Virus record (IMG/VR): IMGVR_UViG_3300003937_000296
Span: 1 to 42,506 of that record
Length of the DNA: 42,506 nucleotides
Direction: 5' to 3' (one strand)
Source: a virus
Numbering within the stretch: position 1 is the stretch's first letter; the number at the start of each line of letters is the position of its first letter. Of this stretch, positions 3,217 through 41,822 are shown in pieces. Under the pieces are notes generated by a model. That model was not told the DNA's origin and ran no database searches. It saw only the letters and a list, made by a program, of their open reading frames with translations. A program made the position numbers and the translations under genes.

Positions 3217-4434
3217 ATGAAAAGAATATACTTAGATTACGCATCAACTACACCCTGCGACCCAAATGTTGCAGAGTTAATGACCAAATTCCTCACATTT
3301 GACGGCGAGTTTGGAAACCCTGCAAGTAGAAGTCACAGTTTCGGTTGGGAGGCTGATCAAGCAATTGACACAGCAAGACAACAAGTAGCAGACCTTATTG
3401 GTGCTGACCCAAGAGAAATCGTATTCACCAGCGGTGCCACTGAAGCAGATAATCTTGCTATCAAAGGTACAGCACAATTTTACGAAACAAATGGTAAACA
3501 CATTGTCACAAGTAAGATTGAACACAAAGCAGTACTTGATCCTTGCAGAGAACTTGAACGTGATGGATTTGAGATTACATATCTTGAACCTAACGAAGAT
3601 GGTATAATCACAGCAGACATGATTGCTGAAGCAATCAGAGAAGATACAATACTTGTAAGTATTATGTTTATCAATAATGAACTTGGTACACTTAACGACA
3701 TAGAAGGTATTGGTAAGTTATGCTTTGATAAGAAAATTATGTTCCATGTGGATGCGGCTCAGGCCACAGGCAAAGTAGAAATAAACTTAGCAGAACTTCC
3801 TGTACATTTAATGAGTTTATCAGCACATAAAACATATGGCCCAAAAGGCGTAGGTGCATTGTATATTCGACGTAAGCCACGTGCAAGAATCAGAGCACAA
3901 ATGCATGGTGGTGGACACGAAAGAGGAAATAGGAGTGGCACACTTCCTACACATCAAATTGTAGGAATGGGGGAAGCATACAGAATTGCCCAAGAGCGAT
4001 TCGAACAAGACAAAGCTCATGTAGGTATGTTACATGATCGTTTGTTAGAAAGAGTTAAAGAAGTTGAGGAAGTATACTTAAACGGCAGTCTTGATCACAA
4101 AGTTAAAAACATTTTAAATGTCAGTTTTAACTTTATTGAAGGCGAAAGTTTGATTATGGCTTTAGAAAATGTTGCTGTTAGTAGCGGTAGTGCATGTACA
4201 AGTGCAACACTTGAACCAAGTTATGTATTACGTGCATTAGGCAGAGCAGACGAGTTAGCACACAGCAGTATACGATTCAGTTTCGGAAGACAAACCACGC
4301 TCGAAGACATTGACCAAACAGCAGATACGTTGCTCGATGTAGTTGAGAAATTAAGAGAACTATCCCCATTGTGGGACATGTACCAAGACGGTGTTGATAT
4401 GGACGCATTCGATTGGGACGAATACATGCATTAA
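3217..4434 (+). CDS. iscS: Cysteine desulfurase IscS (group I NifS family)
   Basis: PLP enzyme that converts cysteine to alanine and passes persulfide sulfur to IscU and other acceptors. At 405 residues it has bacterial IscS length (404 in E. coli). Visible: H103 stacking on PLP, HVDAAQ (Asp179/Gln182), the Schiff-base lysine K205 in [10 protein letters not shown], the RSGTLP loop, and the sulfur-carrying C327 in SSGSACTSA on the long mobile loop typical of group I. The C-terminal tail [12 protein letters not shown], the IscU-docking end in E. coli IscS, is kept. Similarity to bacterial IscS is high throughout, arguing for recent acquisition or strong selection. It is preceded by a late promoter-like box and followed 18 bases later by iscU. 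No iscR, hscA, hscB or fdx is adjacent, so host partners would be needed. Confidence 0.96.
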
Positions 4435-4452: not shown

Positions 4453-4854
4453 ATGGCATATTCAGAAGAAGTAACAAAAAGATTCAAAGGCGTATTATCA
4501 AATCCTAAGAAGTTTAACGTTGGTAAGTTTGATCCAACTGATCCTAAGGTAGCAACTGGCATGACCGGTGCTCCAGCATGTGGTGATGTAATGAGACTAC
4601 AACTTAAACTTGATGACAATGATCGCATAGAAGATGTTATGTTCAAAACATACGGTTGCGGTAGTGCAATTGCAAGTTCAACTATGTTTGTAGAAATGTT
4701 AAAAGGTAAAACAATGGAAGAAGCAAGGCAAATCAAAGACAAAGATATTGCCGCGGCATTGGATTTACCACCAATTAAAATTCACTGTTCAGTGTTAGCA
4801 GAAGACTCAATCAAAAAAGCAATTAAAGATTGGGAAGGCAAATCTTCAGAATAG
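4453..4854 (+). CDS. iscU: Fe-S cluster scaffold IscU
   Basis: Scaffold on which [2Fe-2S] and [4Fe-4S] clusters are built from IscS sulfur. The 133-residue protein keeps the three cluster cysteines C43 (GAPACGDVM), C69 (YGCGSAIASS) and C112 (KIHCSVLAED), the Asp at 45 that tunes cluster release, and LPPIK at 105-109, the equivalent of the LPPVK motif recognised by the HscA chaperone. It therefore looks functional and able to use a host HscA/HscB. It lies directly after iscS. There is no Shine-Dalgarno sequence, only the late promoter-like box. Confidence 0.95.
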   Translation: MAYSEEVTKRFKGVLSNPKKFNVGKFDPTDPKVATGMTGAPACGDVMRLQLKLDDNDRIEDVMFKTYGCGSAIASSTMFVEMLKGKTMEEARQIKDKDIAAALDLPPIKIHCSVLAEDSIKKAIKDWEGKSSE

Positions 4855-17600: not shown

Positions 17601-17946
17601 ATGAAAATCTTACTAAGACTTTTAGACCGATTGGGTCGCAAAAGAGTAATAATGGATAGACTCAGCAATGAGCCATATCTAACCAGATACTACTTGTTCA
17701 TTAAAGAACGCAAGTGGTTCCCATTTAATATATTTTTACACAACTTTCATAAAGGAGATCCAGATGATTTACATGACCATCCTTGGCCTTATTGCACTAT
17801 TATCCTTAAAGGTGGGTATTGGGAGCATCAACCAACTGGCGAGCGAAAGATTCATTCCCGGTCCATCAGTAAGAGAGTGGGGATTCATAGACAACGGGGA
17901 GTGGAAACAACACGAACAATACTTATCCGAGAGGTACAAAGGATGA
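17601..17946 (+). pseudogene. Broken cupin-like gene (internal deletion with frameshift)
   Basis: Residues 1-80 from ATG 17601 match a phage cupin-like family: a RYYLFI segment, FNIFLHNFHKGDPDDLHDHPWP and a LKGGYWEH strand that give the metal histidines. After about base 17845 this frame turns into an implausible Arg-rich sequence. The family's expected C-terminal signature (P-x-V-R-E-W-G-F...W...Y) is instead found in the +1 frame at 17852-17943 (PGPSVREWGF, then GEWKQHEQYL). The stretch between, normally a few dozen residues, is missing. So the gene seems to have lost an internal segment out of frame. The +1 frame ends with TGA at 17944-17946, overlapping the start of the next gene. Sequencing error or programmed frameshift are alternatives, but neither explains the lost middle. 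Confidence 0.65.
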
Positions 17947-18584
17947 AAAGAAAAATAACTATAATTTTTGCTATTGTATTAGGTATGCTGTTTACTTGGG
18001 AAGTAAACGCAACAGGCAATATCAAAGTGGGTGGAACATTTGTAAATGACACTGACAGTACATTTAATGCAAGTTGGGATCAGAAATGGGAATCGTTTAA
18101 TGTATCTGTAGACTACACTTATAAGGAAAGCGATAACGTTGTTAAGTTAGACAAGTTTAACACAGTGGGAAAATACAATTACAAGTTCAGTGAAGAATTT
18201 TATGCATTTGCAATCACCAGTTACGACACAGATAAATTTAGAAGCTCAGGTGATAGGACTGTGTTTGGTAGCGGTGTAGGTTACAACTGGTATAGCACAG
18301 AAAACTTTAAATTAAGCACAGAGAGTTCTATTGCATTGTTAACAAACGACTTTGTTGATGAAGCAATATTTAGACAAAATATTACATCCTCATATAAGTT
18401 ATCTGATGCACTTGAAGTATCTAATAAACTATTGTTTGAATCAGGCACAGAAACATACTTAAAAAGTGAGACTGATATCACATATTTAATTGGTACTAAT
18501 TTAACAGTTGGTCTTAGAAATAGATACACACAAGATCCTGAGAGCAATAACGTATTGAGTTTTAATGTAGGTTACAAATACTAA
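17943..18584 (+). CDS. Outer-membrane beta-barrel protein with signal peptide (DUF481-like)
   Basis: I start this gene at ATG 17943 (ATGA overlap with the cupin remnant, AAAGG upstream), not at 17601: the longer reading is a chance in-frame join with the broken cupin. The 213-residue product begins with a classic signal peptide (basic KRK, hydrophobic core, cleavage near VNA-TG). The rest is amphipathic beta strands with aromatic girdles and the last residue pair Lys-Tyr after a GYKY strand, like YdiY/DUF481 outer-membrane proteins. Such a protein would be exported to the host outer membrane; superinfection exclusion, altered uptake or lysis are possible roles. Confidence 0.7.
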   Translation: MKRKITIIFAIVLGMLFTWEVNATGNIKVGGTFVNDTDSTFNASWDQKWESFNVSVDYTYKESDNVVKLDKFNTVGKYNYKFSEEFYAFAITSYDTDKFRSSGDRTVFGSGVGYNWYSTENFKLSTESSIALLTNDFVDEAIFRQNITSSYKLSDALEVSNKLLFESGTETYLKSETDITYLIGTNLTVGLRNRYTQDPESNNVLSFNVGYKY

Positions 18585-18793
18585 TGAAAAGTATTTCCAA
18601 GAAACGTCATTTAGCAAAAACATTAACATGGCGTGTTCTTGCAACAACTGATACATTTATTATTGCATGGATTATCACAGGCACGTTTTCATTTGCGGCA
18701 AGTATTGCCAGCATAGAAGTTTTAACAAAAATGGTGTTGTACTATTGGCACGAAAGAGCATGGTACAAGTATAGTAGATTTGGGGTAAAGTAG
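18584..18793 (+). CDS. DUF2061 membrane protein
   Basis: 69 residues. Contains the DUF2061 hallmarks: KRHLAKTLTWRVLATTDT at the N terminus, two hydrophobic segments and the closing E.LTKM.LYYWHERAWYK. In bacteria this family of small inner-membrane proteins is often found next to cysteine/sulfur-metabolism genes; its biochemical role is unknown. ATG overlaps the stop of the barrel gene and its own stop overlaps the GTG of the Bfd-like gene, so the three are one unit. Confidence 0.85.
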   Translation: MKSISKKRHLAKTLTWRVLATTDTFIIAWIITGTFSFAASIASIEVLTKMVLYYWHERAWYKYSRFGVK

Positions 18794-18960
18794 TGTATGT
18801 TTGCATCTGTAATCAAATTACAGATTCTATGCTCAAAGATAAACCAGAACTAATAAAAGTGTGTGGAACAAAATGTGGTAAATGTTTGGAATGGATAGCA
18901 CAAGGCAAGATACCAGGAACGGATATAACTATAAAAAATATTAAAAGAGAACAGAAATGA
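18793..18960 (+). CDS. Bacterioferritin-associated ferredoxin (Bfd)-like protein
   Basis: 55 residues from GTG 18793, which shares its G with the TAG of the DUF2061 gene. It begins M-Y-V-C-I-C-N, the same opening as E. coli Bfd (MYVCLCN), so cysteines 4 and 6 are in the right place, and ends the cluster site with C24-G-T-K-C28-G-K-C31, where Bfd has a CGKC pair. Bfd-type [2Fe-2S] proteins donate electrons to bacterioferritin to release Fe(II). The sequence is short at the C terminus relative to Bfd (64 residues). With the ferritin-like gene at 1298 it completes a storage-and-release pair. The dCMP deaminase starts within its stop. Confidence 0.78.
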   Translation: MYVCICNQITDSMLKDKPELIKVCGTKCGKCLEWIAQGKIPGTDITIKNIKREQK

Positions 18961-19406
18961 AACTAAAATATGTAGATGCATTCCTCGATGTAGCAGAAAG
19001 ATTTGCACAACTTAGCAGTGCCAAACGTGCCCAAGTAGGTGCAATCATTGTAAAGGACAATCGTATTATAAGCATTGGATATAATGGTATGCCCAGTGGA
19101 TGGGATAATAGATGCGAAGATGAATACCAGTATGAGGATGGCGGCTACGAAATGAAATCAAGGCCTGAGGTATTACATGCAGAAGCAAACGCCATAGCCA
19201 AAGTAGCACAAAGTAATGAAAGCAGTACAAACGCAACGTTGTTCTGCACACACGAACCTTGTATCGAATGTGCTAAATTAATTCACCAAGCAGGCATAAG
19301 TAAAGTATACTATAGTAAAAAATACGATGCCGCAAAAGGAACAGGCAGTGAATTCTTAGAGAAGAGTTCCATAGAAACATTTTATATACAAAAGGATCAA
19401 ACATGA
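18957..19406 (+). CDS. dCMP deaminase
   Basis: Zn enzyme converting dCMP to dUMP for dTMP synthesis, common in T4-type phages. 149 residues; zinc ligands are in HAEANAI and PCIECAKLI, with the catalytic Glu in HAE. The N-terminal half carries the AKRAQVGAIIVKDN and GYNGMPSGWDN segments typical of dCMP rather than cytidine deaminases. The ATG overlaps the stop of the Bfd-like gene (ATGA), and its stop overlaps the next gene by 4 bases. Confidence 0.93.
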   Translation: MKLKYVDAFLDVAERFAQLSSAKRAQVGAIIVKDNRIISIGYNGMPSGWDNRCEDEYQYEDGGYEMKSRPEVLHAEANAIAKVAQSNESSTNATLFCTHEPCIECAKLIHQAGISKVYYSKKYDAAKGTGSEFLEKSSIETFYIQKDQT

Positions 19407-19987
19407 ATACAATCACAGTCAGCGAATCTGCACAAGACTTTTTAGTTAACCTATTAGAAAAACAAGAGAACACGATTGGTGTTAGGATGTTTGTGGACAA
19501 CCCAGGAACACCTAAAGCAGAAACCATACTGACATACGTGAAAGCAGACAATCCACCTGCAGATGTAACACTCGAAGAGCATGGTAAACTTGCAGTGTAT
19601 TTGCACAACGACTGCATTAAGTTTTTAGAAGAAGCATTAGTAGACTTCAACACAGAGTTAGGGTCAGGTACACTAACAATCAAAGCACCAAACAGCAAGA
19701 TGACTAAGTTGGGAGAAGATGCAACATTACAAGACAAAGTCAATTATCTATTGTGGAATGAAGTAAACCCAGGACTTGCCGCACACAGCGGAGAAGTTAA
19801 TCTTGTAGAAATTACCAAAGACGATGTAGCAGTATTGAGTTTTGGTGGTGGGTGCCAAGGATGTGCCCAAGTGGACCTAACACTAAAGCATGGTGTTGAG
19901 AACACATTACTTGAAAGCATACCAGAGCTAAAGGGTGTATTAGATGTTACTGATCACTCTAACAAGGATAATGCTTACTATAAATGA
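19403..19987 (+). CDS. nfuA: NfuA-like Fe-S cluster carrier
   Basis: Carrier that hands [4Fe-4S] clusters to target enzymes, important under oxidative and iron-limiting stress. 194 residues (E. coli NfuA 191). The N-terminal domain (1-95) is a degenerate A-type fold, lacking its cluster cysteines as in NfuA, and the C-terminal Nfu domain (about 105-190) has GGGC151-Q-G-C154, the C-x-x-C that binds the bridging cluster. The linker TLQDKVNYLLWNEVNPGLAAHSG is characteristic of NfuA. ATGA overlap with dCMP deaminase. Confidence 0.92.
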   Translation: MNTITVSESAQDFLVNLLEKQENTIGVRMFVDNPGTPKAETILTYVKADNPPADVTLEEHGKLAVYLHNDCIKFLEEALVDFNTELGSGTLTIKAPNSKMTKLGEDATLQDKVNYLLWNEVNPGLAAHSGEVNLVEITKDDVAVLSFGGGCQGCAQVDLTLKHGVENTLLESIPELKGVLDVTDHSNKDNAYYK

Positions 19988-28308: not shown

Positions 28309-28341
28309 AAGCCAGTGTTAGTCATTAATACTGGCTTTTTT
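28309..28341 (+). terminator. Intrinsic terminator
   Basis: AAGCCAGT (28309-28316) pairs with ACTGGCTT (28330-28337), followed by a T tract to 28341. The GTG sometimes called as the start of the next ORF (28315) is inside this stem. Confidence 0.85.
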
Positions 28342-28352
28342 ATATCTGCACC

Positions 28353-28360
28353 TATAAATA
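28353..28360 (+). promoter_or_regulatory. Consensus late promoter upstream of sufE
   Basis: TATAAATA, exact T4 consensus, right after a terminator, then five bases and the sufE ATG (28366). Confidence 0.7.
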
Positions 28361-28365
28361 GTTGC

Positions 28366-28746
28366 ATGTCAAGTATATTAGAAAAATACAAAACAGCAGT
28401 AAACAGTTTCCAATCGCAGAATGATTTTGATGCATGGTTGGTTACTTTGGGTAATGCATTATCGACATCCAACACCAGTGAATTGAGAGTGCGATCCAAT
28501 TACATCAAAGGGTGTAAAAATAATTGTTGGATTGACAAAGTAGATGACAACATTGTGTTTGACAGCGATGCAATAAAAACAAAAGGCTTGGGAAAAATTT
28601 TAACTGATGTTTATAATATGACCGACAACACTGCCGGTATTAATTTTATAGACTTCAAAGATATAACACGTGGATTAAGCAGAGATGAACTAATAGGTTT
28701 TTCTAAAATGCTTAACCGCATTCATAACTTGACAAACAACAGTTAA
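28366..28746 (+). CDS. sufE: SufE-family sulfur acceptor
   Basis: Takes persulfide sulfur from a cysteine desulfurase and enhances its activity. Starts at ATG 28366 (the upstream GTG at 28315 lies in a terminator). 126 residues (E. coli SufE 138). The active Cys is C50 in YIKGCKNNCW, matching the I-x-G-C-x-x-x-x-W core of SufE/CsdE; a second Cys (C54) is nearby. The C-terminal GLSRDELIGFSKMLNRIHN matches the SufE L-x-x-x-R helix. It usually serves group II SufS/CsdA; here the phage desulfurase is group I IscS, so it may instead stimulate a host SufS. Confidence 0.88.
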   Translation: MSSILEKYKTAVNSFQSQNDFDAWLVTLGNALSTSNTSELRVRSNYIKGCKNNCWIDKVDDNIVFDSDAIKTKGLGKILTDVYNMTDNTAGINFIDFKDITRGLSRDELIGFSKMLNRIHNLTNNS

Positions 28747-29887: not shown

Positions 29888-30253
29888 ATGGAAATGAAAA
29901 CATTTAATCCACAGGAAGAACTAATCACTCTCACTGATGGCGCCCAAAAACACTTTAAGCAAGTATCACAAGACAGTGAAGCATTAGGTGTACGATTAAA
30001 ATTAACAGGCGGCGGCTGTGCCGGATATGCCTATGAATGGGAACTGGTCAAGGAACTGGGTGACATCAAACTTACCGAGTGGTCCAAAGAATACGAAGGT
30101 TTTCAATTTTGGTTAGACGACATGAGCAAGCCTTATCTTGCAGGCAGTGTGGTTGATAAGATCACAGGCATAGCAGGCAACATGATAGATATAACTTCAC
30201 CTTTAGCCAGTAGTAAATGTGGCTGTGGTGAGAGCGTGACATTTGAAATATGA
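29888..30253 (+). CDS. A-type Fe-S carrier (IscA/SufA/ErpA family)
   Basis: Accepts clusters from IscU or SufB scaffolds and passes them, often as [4Fe-4S], to apoproteins. 121 residues. All three family cysteines are present: C44 in GGGCAGY and C111-G-C113 near the C terminus (SKCGCGESVTF). Features cannot separate IscA from SufA or ErpA, so no symbol is given. With iscU and NfuA it completes the carrier branch of the pathway. Overlaps the next gene by 4 bases. Confidence 0.93.
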   Translation: MEMKTFNPQEELITLTDGAQKHFKQVSQDSEALGVRLKLTGGGCAGYAYEWELVKELGDIKLTEWSKEYEGFQFWLDDMSKPYLAGSVVDKITGIAGNMIDITSPLASSKCGCGESVTFEI

Positions 30254-38521: not shown

Positions 38522-39964
38522 ATGAAATTAATTGTAATGTCAGATTTAGGTGCCAAGCCTACACGTGTAGGTACATTATTAAATAATAATAGGCCAGCAG
38601 GTGTTCACCATATTGTAAACATAGCCAACAACCACGGTGTAGATGCTGAGGCTATTGACTATTGGAAAGATTGGCCTGAAGAACTACTCATAGAAAGTAT
38701 TGTGAGTTTCTTTGGTGATGATCCAACGTGTTGGATTAGTCTAAGTGGCAGTATCGATGGTAGTAGCACAGAAGCATTCAAAGAACTTGTTGTTAAAATA
38801 AAAAAACACTGCCCTGTTAAAGTAATGTTAGGTGGGTATCGTGTTACTGTAGGTGATAGCAGTTGGGTTGATTTAGCATTCATGGGTAGATGTACCAACA
38901 TATTCACAGATTGGCTTGAAGGTAAAGACTTAGATCAATACGTTCATTCAACTAACCCACTAACATACAAAAACCCAGACAAAATCATACGTGAAACTGC
39001 TGTCAGTGTTGTTCCTAAAGACGGTGACTTTTGGAGTCCCAGAGAAACAATGTCATTAGAGATGGCACTTGGCTGTAAGTTTAATTGCAGTTTTTGTGGC
39101 TACGACTATCGAGGTAACAAGAACAGTGTATTCGTAGACAAAGAATTGTTAACAGAAACTATGCAAACAGCATATGATAAGTTTGGCATCAAGCATTTTT
39201 ATCTTGCAGACGACACCATGAATGAGATTGACGATAAGTTAGAACTATTAGGTGATGTATGTGAGGATTTAACATTTGAGCCTGACCTAATGGGATTTAT
39301 TAGATTAGATGTACTTGGTGGACAGCCGCATCAAATGGAACTAATAAAACGTGCTAATATTAAAAGCATGTTCTTTGGCATAGAAAGTTTTTCTACCAAC
39401 GTAACCAAGTTAATACGTAAGGGTGGTAAACCAGAAAAGAACATGGATACACTGGCAAAGATTCGTGATGAGCACCCAGACATATTTACATATGGTAATT
39501 TTATTATAGGCTTAACTGGCGACTGTGAGAAAGATATTAGATACTATGCTGAAAAAGTTGTTAACGAACAACTGTTAACCAGTGCAGGATGTAATACATT
39601 AAGGCTTTATCAAGGTCTTGATAACACTGAGATAATGAGTGACATTGATTTAAATCCTAAAAAGTTTGGATACGAAGTTATAGGCACAGACAGGAATTGG
39701 CCGGAGTTAGGTTACAGTTCTCAATCATGGGCTAATGATTGGACATCGTCTACCGAGGCAGGCCGTATTACAAGTTGGCTCGATGATTACTATGATAAGA
39801 ACTTACAAAGCAGATACACTGGTCACGAGTTCCAAAGTATTAAAAGTTGCTTACCAGGACTTAGTCATGCTGAATATAACATGGCTTTACCAGCACACAA
39901 CGTAAGACGTACTAAATTAGTTCAAAAGTACATTAAGCAGAAAAGTGCCTACTTAATTGGATAA
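38522..39964 (+). CDS. Radical-SAM protein, B12-binding-like N terminus (paralogue 1)
   Basis: 480 residues. The [4Fe-4S] site is C185-x3-C189-x2-C192 in LGCKFNCSFCGYDY; a GGE-like FFGIES strand and FIRLDVL follow in the TIM barrel. The first 150 residues have a Rossmann/B12-binding-like outline, but no clear cobalamin-ligand DxHxxG. The protein shares collinear motifs with 40296-41822 (SLE..LGCKFNC, DDT.NE, GQPHQ/RPHQ, YFGIE, IRKG). Reaction unknown. It would need [4Fe-4S] clusters and SAM, which this phage seems equipped to make. Confidence 0.85.
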   Translation: MKLIVMSDLGAKPTRVGTLLNNNRPAGVHHIVNIANNHGVDAEAIDYWKDWPEELLIESIVSFFGDDPTCWISLSGSIDGSSTEAFKELVVKIKKHCPVKVMLGGYRVTVGDSSWVDLAFMGRCTNIFTDWLEGKDLDQYVHSTNPLTYKNPDKIIRETAVSVVPKDGDFWSPRETMSLEMALGCKFNCSFCGYDYRGNKNSVFVDKELLTETMQTAYDKFGIKHFYLADDTMNEIDDKLELLGDVCEDLTFEPDLMGFIRLDVLGGQPHQMELIKRANIKSMFFGIESFSTNVTKLIRKGGKPEKNMDTLAKIRDEHPDIFTYGNFIIGLTGDCEKDIRYYAEKVVNEQLLTSAGCNTLRLYQGLDNTEIMSDIDLNPKKFGYEVIGTDRNWPELGYSSQSWANDWTSSTEAGRITSWLDDYYDKNLQSRYTGHEFQSIKSCLPGLSHAEYNMALPAHNVRRTKLVQKYIKQKSAYLIG

Positions 39965-39967
39965 ATA
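39960..39967 (+). promoter_or_regulatory. Late promoter box upstream of the small gene between the radical-SAM genes
   Basis: GATAAATA, overlapping the stop of radical-SAM gene 1, then five bases and ATG 39973. Confidence 0.6.
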
Positions 39968-39972
39968 GTATT

Positions 39973-40296
39973 ATGAAGAAGCCAACAAACACAACAAAGA
40001 AAACAGTTATACAGGATACGGAAGTACTCGTAGTCAAATTAGTATGGTACAAACGACTGTGGCAATGGTGGTTGAGCTTGTGGAAAGAAGAGTATGAAGT
40101 AGTTGTTTGGTTTCACACTGAAACAACTATTAATGCGGAAGGCCTTAAAACAGTAAAACGTAATCGCAAAGAGTTCCAATTAAAAGATATCAGCAAGAAA
40201 ACAGCCACGCACATAGTGGGTAAAGATATATTTGGTAAGCCATTTGAGATTAAAACTGTTGAGCCATTTGATTACCAAATACGCAAAATATTATAA
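39973..40296 (+). CDS. Hypothetical basic protein between the radical-SAM genes
   Basis: 107 residues, Lys- and Trp-rich (WYKRLWQWWLSLWKEEYE), with a beta-rich second half (EFQLKDISKKTATHIVG). It may be a partner or substrate peptide for the flanking radical-SAM proteins, given its position, but no precursor-peptide leader or conserved core Cys/Ser run is seen. TAATG overlap with the next gene. Confidence 0.6.
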   Translation: MKKPTNTTKKTVIQDTEVLVVKLVWYKRLWQWWLSLWKEEYEVVVWFHTETTINAEGLKTVKRNRKEFQLKDISKKTATHIVGKDIFGKPFEIKTVEPFDYQIRKIL

Positions 40297-41822
40297 TGAA
40301 TCCATATCTTGACGGTGCGATTATAATCGACTGCACCAACTCCTCTAATATGAGTGGTGAGAGAGCTCAAGTAATTAGGCCATTAGCACCAATGGCAATC
40401 CATCATGAAATAGTAAAAAGAGATTACTCTGCAACACTGTTTGACTATTTTTATGACTGGGATAACGACACACTGTTAGAAAACATTGTGACATGGTGCG
40501 AATCGCAGAACGTTACAAACCCTTTGTTGTTAAGCACATCATTGTTTAATAAATTCTTAATAAGCAAAGGCAACAAGTTGTACGACTTTGTTAATAAATT
40601 TAAACAACACTTCCCCGACAGTAAATACTTCACAGGAGGACCTATTGCTGTTCTCGATCCAGACTGTGACATAGTGCCTGATGCAGTGTTCAGAGGCAGA
40701 AGTCTACACTTGTTTACACGATGGCTCGATACTCCACATGAACCTTTGTTGAATACTATTACTATGAAAGGCGATTGCACAGTGTATCACAGGACTGGCA
40801 CAGACATAGTTGAGAAACCCATAGTGCCAATACTGTATGATGATTACTGTCTAACAGAAAATGATATAGTGAGTTTTGAAACAAGATTAGGTTGTAAGTT
40901 TAATTGTACATTTTGTAACTTTGAATTCCGCAATGCTAAAAACACACACGATGCTGACCCAAAAGATTTACAGCATTATTTTGAAACAGCAAAAAACAAA
41001 TATGGCATACAGCATTTTAGTTGTGTGGATGACACATTCAACGAGGACGATGTTAAGATAGAAAACTTGCTGAGTGCTGTTACACAATTAGACTATCAGC
41101 CAAAGATAATTGGATACACACGATTTGATTTACTTAAAGCAAGACCTCACCAAGCAGAGATGCTTGACCGCTGTGGCTTCCATGGACATTACTTTGGCAT
41201 AGAAACGTTGCACAGAGAAGCAAGTAAACGCATACGCAAGGGTATAGAACGTGTGAGTAGTTTGAACTACTTGGAAGAATTACGTGAGAAGTACCCTCAT
41301 TGGTGGATATGCAGTGGCTACATAGTTGGCCTACCACCAGAACCCATTGAACATGTATTAGATGTGTGGGAAGAACTAACTGAAAGAAAACTGTTAGACT
41401 CTGCTATTATACAACCACTGGGTGTGTATGCAGTAGAGGATAATGAATTAAACTATGCAGAGATAAACAAAAACCCTGAGAAGTTTGGTATAACTATAAA
41501 ACCTAAAAAGCCTGGCAGTAATGAACATATACTCGATTGGGAACACGGTACTATGAATTTCAAACAGGCAACAATATATTCAAGAAGGCTGTCATCTAAC
41601 GTGTTCAAGAAAGGTATCACAATGTTAGATAGTTGGGAGGCTGTGAGTCGTAGAGCCTTAGGTTTGAATGATTTGTTGAGTGTAGAAGGCAAGCAACAGT
41701 TTAAAGAACAAGTACTGAAGCAAGGTAAAAAATTCTACTACAGTGATAAATTCTATGCATCGAGCAACGATCATGTTACTCGATACATAAAACTAAAACA
41801 AGATTATATTTCGTCGTTGTAG
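40296..41822 (+). CDS. Radical-SAM protein (paralogue 2)
   Basis: 508 residues. Cluster motif C200-x3-C204-x2-C207 in LGCKFNCTFCNFEF; then DDTFNEDD, the GYTRFDLLKARPHQ strand and YFGIETLHREASKRIRKG, matching paralogue 1 in order and spacing. The N-terminal 190 residues again look like a B12-binding-like domain without a recognisable cobalamin His. The C-terminal 100 residues are specific to this pair. The 3' end converges with phoH, overlapping by 19 bases. Confidence 0.85.
   Translation: MNPYLDGAIIIDCTNSSNMSGERAQVIRPLAPMAIHHEIVKRDYSATLFDYFYDWDNDTLLENIVTWCESQNVTNPLLLSTSLFNKFLISKGNKLYDFVNKFKQHFPDSKYFTGGPIAVLDPDCDIVPDAVFRGRSLHLFTRWLDTPHEPLLNTITMKGDCTVYHRTGTDIVEKPIVPILYDDYCLTENDIVSFETRLGCKFNCTFCNFEFRNAKNTHDADPKDLQHYFETAKNKYGIQHFSCVDDTFNEDDVKIENLLSAVTQLDYQPKIIGYTRFDLLKARPHQAEMLDRCGFHGHYFGIETLHREASKRIRKGIERVSSLNYLEELREKYPHWWICSGYIVGLPPEPIEHVLDVWEELTERKLLDSAIIQPLGVYAVEDNELNYAEINKNPEKFGITIKPKKPGSNEHILDWEHGTMNFKQATIYSRRLSSNVFKKGITMLDSWEAVSRRALGLNDLLSVEGKQQFKEQVLKQGKKFYYSDKFYASSNDHVTRYIKLKQDYISSL

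Follow-up and report, generated by a model that had tools for sequence, protein, structure and literature searches.

NifU combines in one chain an IscU-like module, a central module of Fer2_BFD type and an Nfu module. It depends on the [2Fe-2S] cluster in the core ferredoxin domain (PMC13382767), and Bfd docks directly above the heme of bacterioferritin, which relays its electrons (PMC7760384). Marine T4-like phages carry IscU and A-type carriers; the report on them describes no Bfd or ferredoxin, and the words "ferredoxin" and "ferritin" are absent from its text (Nishimura et al. 2017, PMC5332604). A literature search found no phage Bfd. Here, we analysed the whole 42,506-nucleotide stretch of the virus record IMGVR_UViG_3300003937_000296 (hereafter referred to as the window), in which a short gene encodes a shortened Bfd-like protein (hereafter referred to as mini-Bfd) in the following setting:

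18584-18793, + strand: DUF2061 membrane protein (Pfam PF09834, 4.7e-22), directly upstream of mini-Bfd
18793-18960, + strand: mini-Bfd, shortened Bfd-like protein of 55 aa with a GTG start; presumed [2Fe-2S] ligands C4, C6, C28 and C31
18957-19406, + strand: dCMP deaminase (PF00383, 1.4e-23), directly downstream of mini-Bfd
19403-19987, + strand: NfuA-like Fe-S carrier with an A-type and an Nfu domain with CxxC (TIGR03341 7.2e-73, 244 bits, below the cut-off of 269; PF01106, PF01521)

The predicted product of the mini-Bfd gene is MYVCICNQITDSMLKDKPELIKVCGTKCGKCLEWIAQGKIPGTDITIKNIKREQK (55 aa). As an earlier note on this DNA had described, the DUF2061 gene ends at 18793, overlapping the mini-Bfd start by one base, and the dCMP deaminase starts at 18957, overlapping the mini-Bfd end by four bases (ATGA). 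The gene is retained in two near-identical phage records (L001 and L002), and comparison of eight more distantly related pairs gave 21, 14 and 62 differences at codon positions 1, 2 and 3, a third-position excess that marks a translated gene and bears out the note's view that it is almost certainly translated. With 46 distinct sequences of common architecture and coding-type differences among them, the reading frame is real and not a chance occurrence; it is also easily missed, as the note had supposed. Further upstream, a 327-aa ORF (17601-18584) combines a cupin resembling cysteine dioxygenase with a membrane/beta-barrel-like protein, the two being brought into one frame by the loss of 86 bases at about 17849/17850. 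These bases are present in L001 and L002, the latter with two distinct reading frames at this place; the loss is either a strain deletion or an assembly error.

We then compared mini-Bfd with known families. Searched alone, the window protein formally fails against Fer2_BFD (PF04324; 14.2 bits, gathering cut-off 26 bits), the family in which the earlier note had placed it, and likewise falls short of the NCBIfam Bfd model (17.3 bits, cut-off 75) and of significance in the PDB, where it finds Bfd at E 0.016 with a ten-residue gap. Searches with its relatives gave a different picture. PF04324 matched 25 of 28 relatives, mostly weakly, and the relative L317 reached 26.0 bits; alignment of the mini-Bfd profile with a cellular Bfd profile (hhalign, 98.6%, E 1e-15) covered both ligand loops with a ten-residue gap between the ligand pairs; and a PDB profile search returned four Bfd sequences (E 1.1e-6 to 4e-5), the remainder lying at E ≥ 0.3. 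The AlphaFold model (pLDDT 84, pTM 0.62) places two short helices between the loops (residues 11-16 and 18-23), and its best five PDB matches in Foldseek were all Pseudomonas Bfd (prob 0.66-0.95; next 0.04), with modest TM (about 0.5) and E (0.02 and up) because the protein is short (55 residues). A match to the Bfd fold was thus found by both profile and structure.

The MYVCxCxxxT opening, whose first residues (M-Y-V-C-x-C-N) the earlier note had read as Bfd-like, is indeed common to mini-Bfd and Bfd. In an alignment of 38 mini-Bfd sequences, C4, C6, C28, G29 and C31 are invariant, an invariance partly built in by search patterns that demanded an MYVC or MYIC start and CGxC. The C-x3-C-x2-C run highlighted previously is present in the window protein as C24-x3-C28-x2-C31, but C24 is absent from most relatives, and the run was rejected as a conserved motif: of its three cysteines C28 and C31 alone are invariant, alongside C4 and C6. 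Mini-Bfd is probably a [2Fe-2S] protein, with one cluster most likely held on C4, C6, C28 and C31. Four-cysteine sites can also bind zinc, and a zinc-ribbon model matches two members weakly; however, the CxC and CGxC spacing and the loop sequence are of Bfd type and Fe-S genes occur among the neighbours, so that a zinc-binding mini-domain that has lost Fe-S chemistry appears a remote prospect.

Gene order provided independent support for this homology, through a related phage record (L322) with a full-length Bfd:

L322, 3975-4163: full-length phage Bfd, x29 spacing (31.1 bits with PF04324, above cut-off; PDB Bfd E 1.3e-6)

The order in L322 is ferritin, then after an interval CTP-transferase-like, cupin, DUF2061, Bfd, dCMP deaminase and NfuA, which puts the full-length Bfd in the slot that mini-Bfd occupies between DUF2061 and the dCMP deaminase-NfuA pair. 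Mini-Bfd lies in the corresponding region in the window, L279/L300, L280/L283/L302, L291 and L293/L323, with one extra gene before the dCMP deaminase in L291 and L293/L323; the upstream DUF2061 recurs in L279, L322 and L323, and the downstream dCMP deaminase in L279/L300, L280/L283 and L322. The slot directly upstream of the dCMP deaminase holds a beta-ketoacyl-synthase-like gene in L323 (confirmed by Pfam), and the proteins upstream of the deaminase in L313, L314 and L319 resemble one another in sequence and are likewise beta-ketoacyl-synthase-like. Taken together, profile, predicted structure and synteny establish mini-Bfd as a Bfd homologue; the ferredoxin assignment of the earlier note stands in this respect, but the note had not noticed that the protein belongs to a shorter, phage-specific class.

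This class is defined by its ligand spacing, CxC-x21-CxxC against about x31 in Bfd, and the ten-residue difference corresponds to a loss of about that length at the end of the first helix and the start of the second. A scan of IMG/VR for MYVCxC ... CGxC yielded 57 loci (47 with x21, 8 with x19 and two with x24 or x25), and the MYIC pattern yielded 28 loci, 23 of them x21; the 47 and 23 x21 loci comprise 46 distinct sequences, and members with other starts (e.g., MILC in L334) are under-counted by these patterns. The MYVC short-pattern scan of 84,980 prokaryote genomes, confined to MYVC starts, hit 46 places, of which 40 encode an in-frame Bfd-like protein, with x27-x33 spacing in 39 and x21 in one. 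That sole x21 match is identical to a phage copy and lies on a 6.3-kb contig of a metagenome-assembled genome (L100). Conversely, scanning IMG/VR for full-length spacing gave nine places, seven with a real Bfd. The window protein has no match in PHROGs, where its relatives gave weak and scattered hits (best E 0.005); tblastn of two members against 50,697 phage records returned nothing believable, and a viral-protein structural library gave no convincing match. On these sequence comparisons, mini-Bfd represents a branch of the Bfd/Fer2_BFD family specific to phages and widespread in environmental ones, and the shortened family is apparently undescribed so far.

The earlier note had paired mini-Bfd with a ferritin-like gene as an iron storage and release system carried by one phage:

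1298-1732, + strand: ferritin-like protein (PF00210, 2.6e-17; closest solved structure Dps-like, 8w1d, E 5e-9)

This pairing proved weak. Outside the window, PF00210 hit a single mini-Bfd record among 43, one that nearly duplicates the window phage, and one of 18 further records (G127), giving 2 of about 61, and consistent ferritin pairing across mini-Bfd phages was not supported. PA4880, a Dps-like protein of Pseudomonas, is the closest match to the window ferritin, which has S-L-A-H in place of the E-M-D-H of bacterioferritin 9qq4 and so carries Leu instead of the heme Met and Ser instead of one ferroxidase Glu; in an alignment with L322 and L361, the copies from L322 (84% identical to that of the window) and G129 agree with it in this region. 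Given that Bfd acts through the heme, the lack of the heme Met leaves such a pairing possible only in an undescribed form or with a host protein, and host bacterioferritin could be a client of mini-Bfd. A role in docking on the phage ferritin-like protein and reducing stored ferric iron to Fe2+ for the infected cell would suit the Bfd homology, and in three related phages (window, L322 and G127) ferritin is found alongside a full-length or shortened Bfd. We nevertheless consider it decidedly unlikely given the scarcity and Dps-like character of the ferritin, the deletion from mini-Bfd of the Bfd segment holding R26, and G129, a related phage with ferritin in which no Bfd was found.

Mini-Bfd also occurs as part of larger proteins. 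In eight loci (L007, L008, L029, L034, L035, L040, L047 and L050) it is fused N-terminally and in frame to a PD-(D/E)XK nuclease, for example:

L007, 766-2715: mini-Bfd-nuclease fusion
L040, 8209-8955: mini-Bfd-nuclease fusion (PF12705, 1.5e-7)

An unnamed phage domain that starts with MKVVIN is the fusion partner of the x19 form, in frame in L011, L020, L025, L031, L043 and L057, and also in L045. These fusions suggest that the module may also act as a sensor or tether. Its general function could then be that of a four-cysteine docking or sensor domain, with Fe-S or zinc, regulating a partner, for example the fused nuclease, but the majority of members are unfused, searches matched no DNA-binding family and the only good structural matches are to redox Bfd, which makes this reading very unlikely.

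We further focused on Fe-S assembly genes. Alongside NfuA, the window encodes the following, a set unusually full for a phage (IscS, IscU, NfuA, SufE-like and A-type carrier):

3217-4434, + strand: IscS cysteine desulfurase, proposed partner (TIGR02006 1.7e-202, above cut-off)
4453-4854, + strand: IscU scaffold, proposed partner (PF01592 3.4e-41; TIGR01999 7.8e-49, below cut-off)
28315-28746, + strand: SufE-like sulfur transfer protein (PF02657 4.8e-9, above cut-off)
29888-30253, + strand: A-type Fe-S carrier, IscA/ErpA-like (TIGR00049 4.7e-18, above cut-off)

IscU was present in 15 of the 25 stand-alone mini-Bfd records of at least 25 kb (window included). Grouping these records by mini-Bfd identity gave 15 lineages, and IscU occurred in 8 of them versus 1 of 45 control records (Fisher's test, P = 2e-5), where the controls were found via the clamp loader of the window and are unmatched in host and habitat, and lineages with several records had a greater chance of scoring. 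In several lineages (e.g., L016, L017, L044 and L306) IscU lies 0.4-2.5 kb upstream of mini-Bfd on the same strand; the distance from IscS-IscU to mini-Bfd in the window is 14 kb. NfuA lies two genes downstream of mini-Bfd in the window, and the two lie near each other with the dCMP deaminase between them in the window, L279, L280, L291 and L293, a synteny that may reflect phage kinship only. Seven of the 15 lineages, as well as the nuclease-fusion group, lack IscU in records that are partial. The reverse association is weak: mini-Bfd was found in only 1 of 38 IscU-bearing records and within 10 kb of IscU in 0 of 80 loci, so the proposition that every IscU phage carries it was rejected, and its scarcity there indicates that phage IscU can do without it. 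Isolate phages with IscU are few, at least one such record being a bacterial contig, and phage C48C1 has IscU with no mini-Bfd. Overall, mini-Bfd goes with Fe-S-building genes rather than with ferritin across phages, a better link though not a tight one.

Two neighbouring radical-SAM-like proteins with CxxxCxxC (38522-39964 and 40296-41822) are candidate users of phage-made clusters. Radical-SAM enzymes usually receive electrons from ferredoxins with a different fold, which argues against mini-Bfd being a general small electron carrier that substitutes for a [2Fe-2S] ferredoxin in serving these or other phage oxidoreductases, apart from Fe-S assembly. The varied gene content of mini-Bfd phages, the two radical-SAM-like proteins and the lineages without IscU would all fit such a carrier, but it leaves the IscU enrichment and the nuclease fusions unexplained, and we regard it as unlikely.

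We favour, tentatively and at slightly below an even chance, a role for mini-Bfd with a [2Fe-2S] cluster as a small donor of electrons or clusters to phage Fe-S assembly. During infection, it would donate electrons or its cluster to phage-borne assembly proteins, which in the window phage would be IscS-IscU-NfuA and an A-type carrier, a role matching that of the central ferredoxin domain of NifU. The new clusters would feed Fe-S enzymes of the phage, for which the radical-SAM-like proteins at 38522-41822 are candidates, or alternatively host enzymes whose activity is maintained to support phage growth. The window contains IscU-like, Fer2_BFD-type and Nfu modules together as separate genes, and by analogy mini-Bfd may take the part of the NifU core domain. 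The fuller proposal of a NifU-like line taken apart into IscS, IscU, mini-Bfd and NfuA, in which mini-Bfd, as a viral ferredoxin class, gives electrons or a catalytic cluster and elsewhere serves as a redox-sensing nuclease cap, is possible but doubtful.

These findings extend the iron-sulfur toolkit known from marine phages by a family of small proteins that appears not to have been described, and indicate that the Bfd domain can shrink to about 33 residues yet persist over wide divergence; they also illustrate why single-sequence Pfam calls overlook such genes. If mini-Bfd powers the assembly of clusters, phages supply an electron donor of their own, with consequences for iron allocation in infected cells; if it caps a nuclease, it may form a redox switch. 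Compared with Bfd of P. aeruginosa (PDB 4e6k and 6e6r; NCBIfam PRK10509), mini-Bfd shares the opening, the presumed CxC and CGxC ligands and the modelled fold, but differs in its spacing (x21 vs x31), in lacking the R26 segment and in its C-terminal tail, and the window phage has no heme-type bacterioferritin. The full-length Bfd of L322, in the equivalent slot, differs from it in its x29 spacing and its score above the Pfam cut-off. Fer2_BFD, which includes the central domain of NifU, is homologous to mini-Bfd although the window protein scores below the curated cut-off, and the three module types that NifU unites in one chain are encoded in the window by separate genes.
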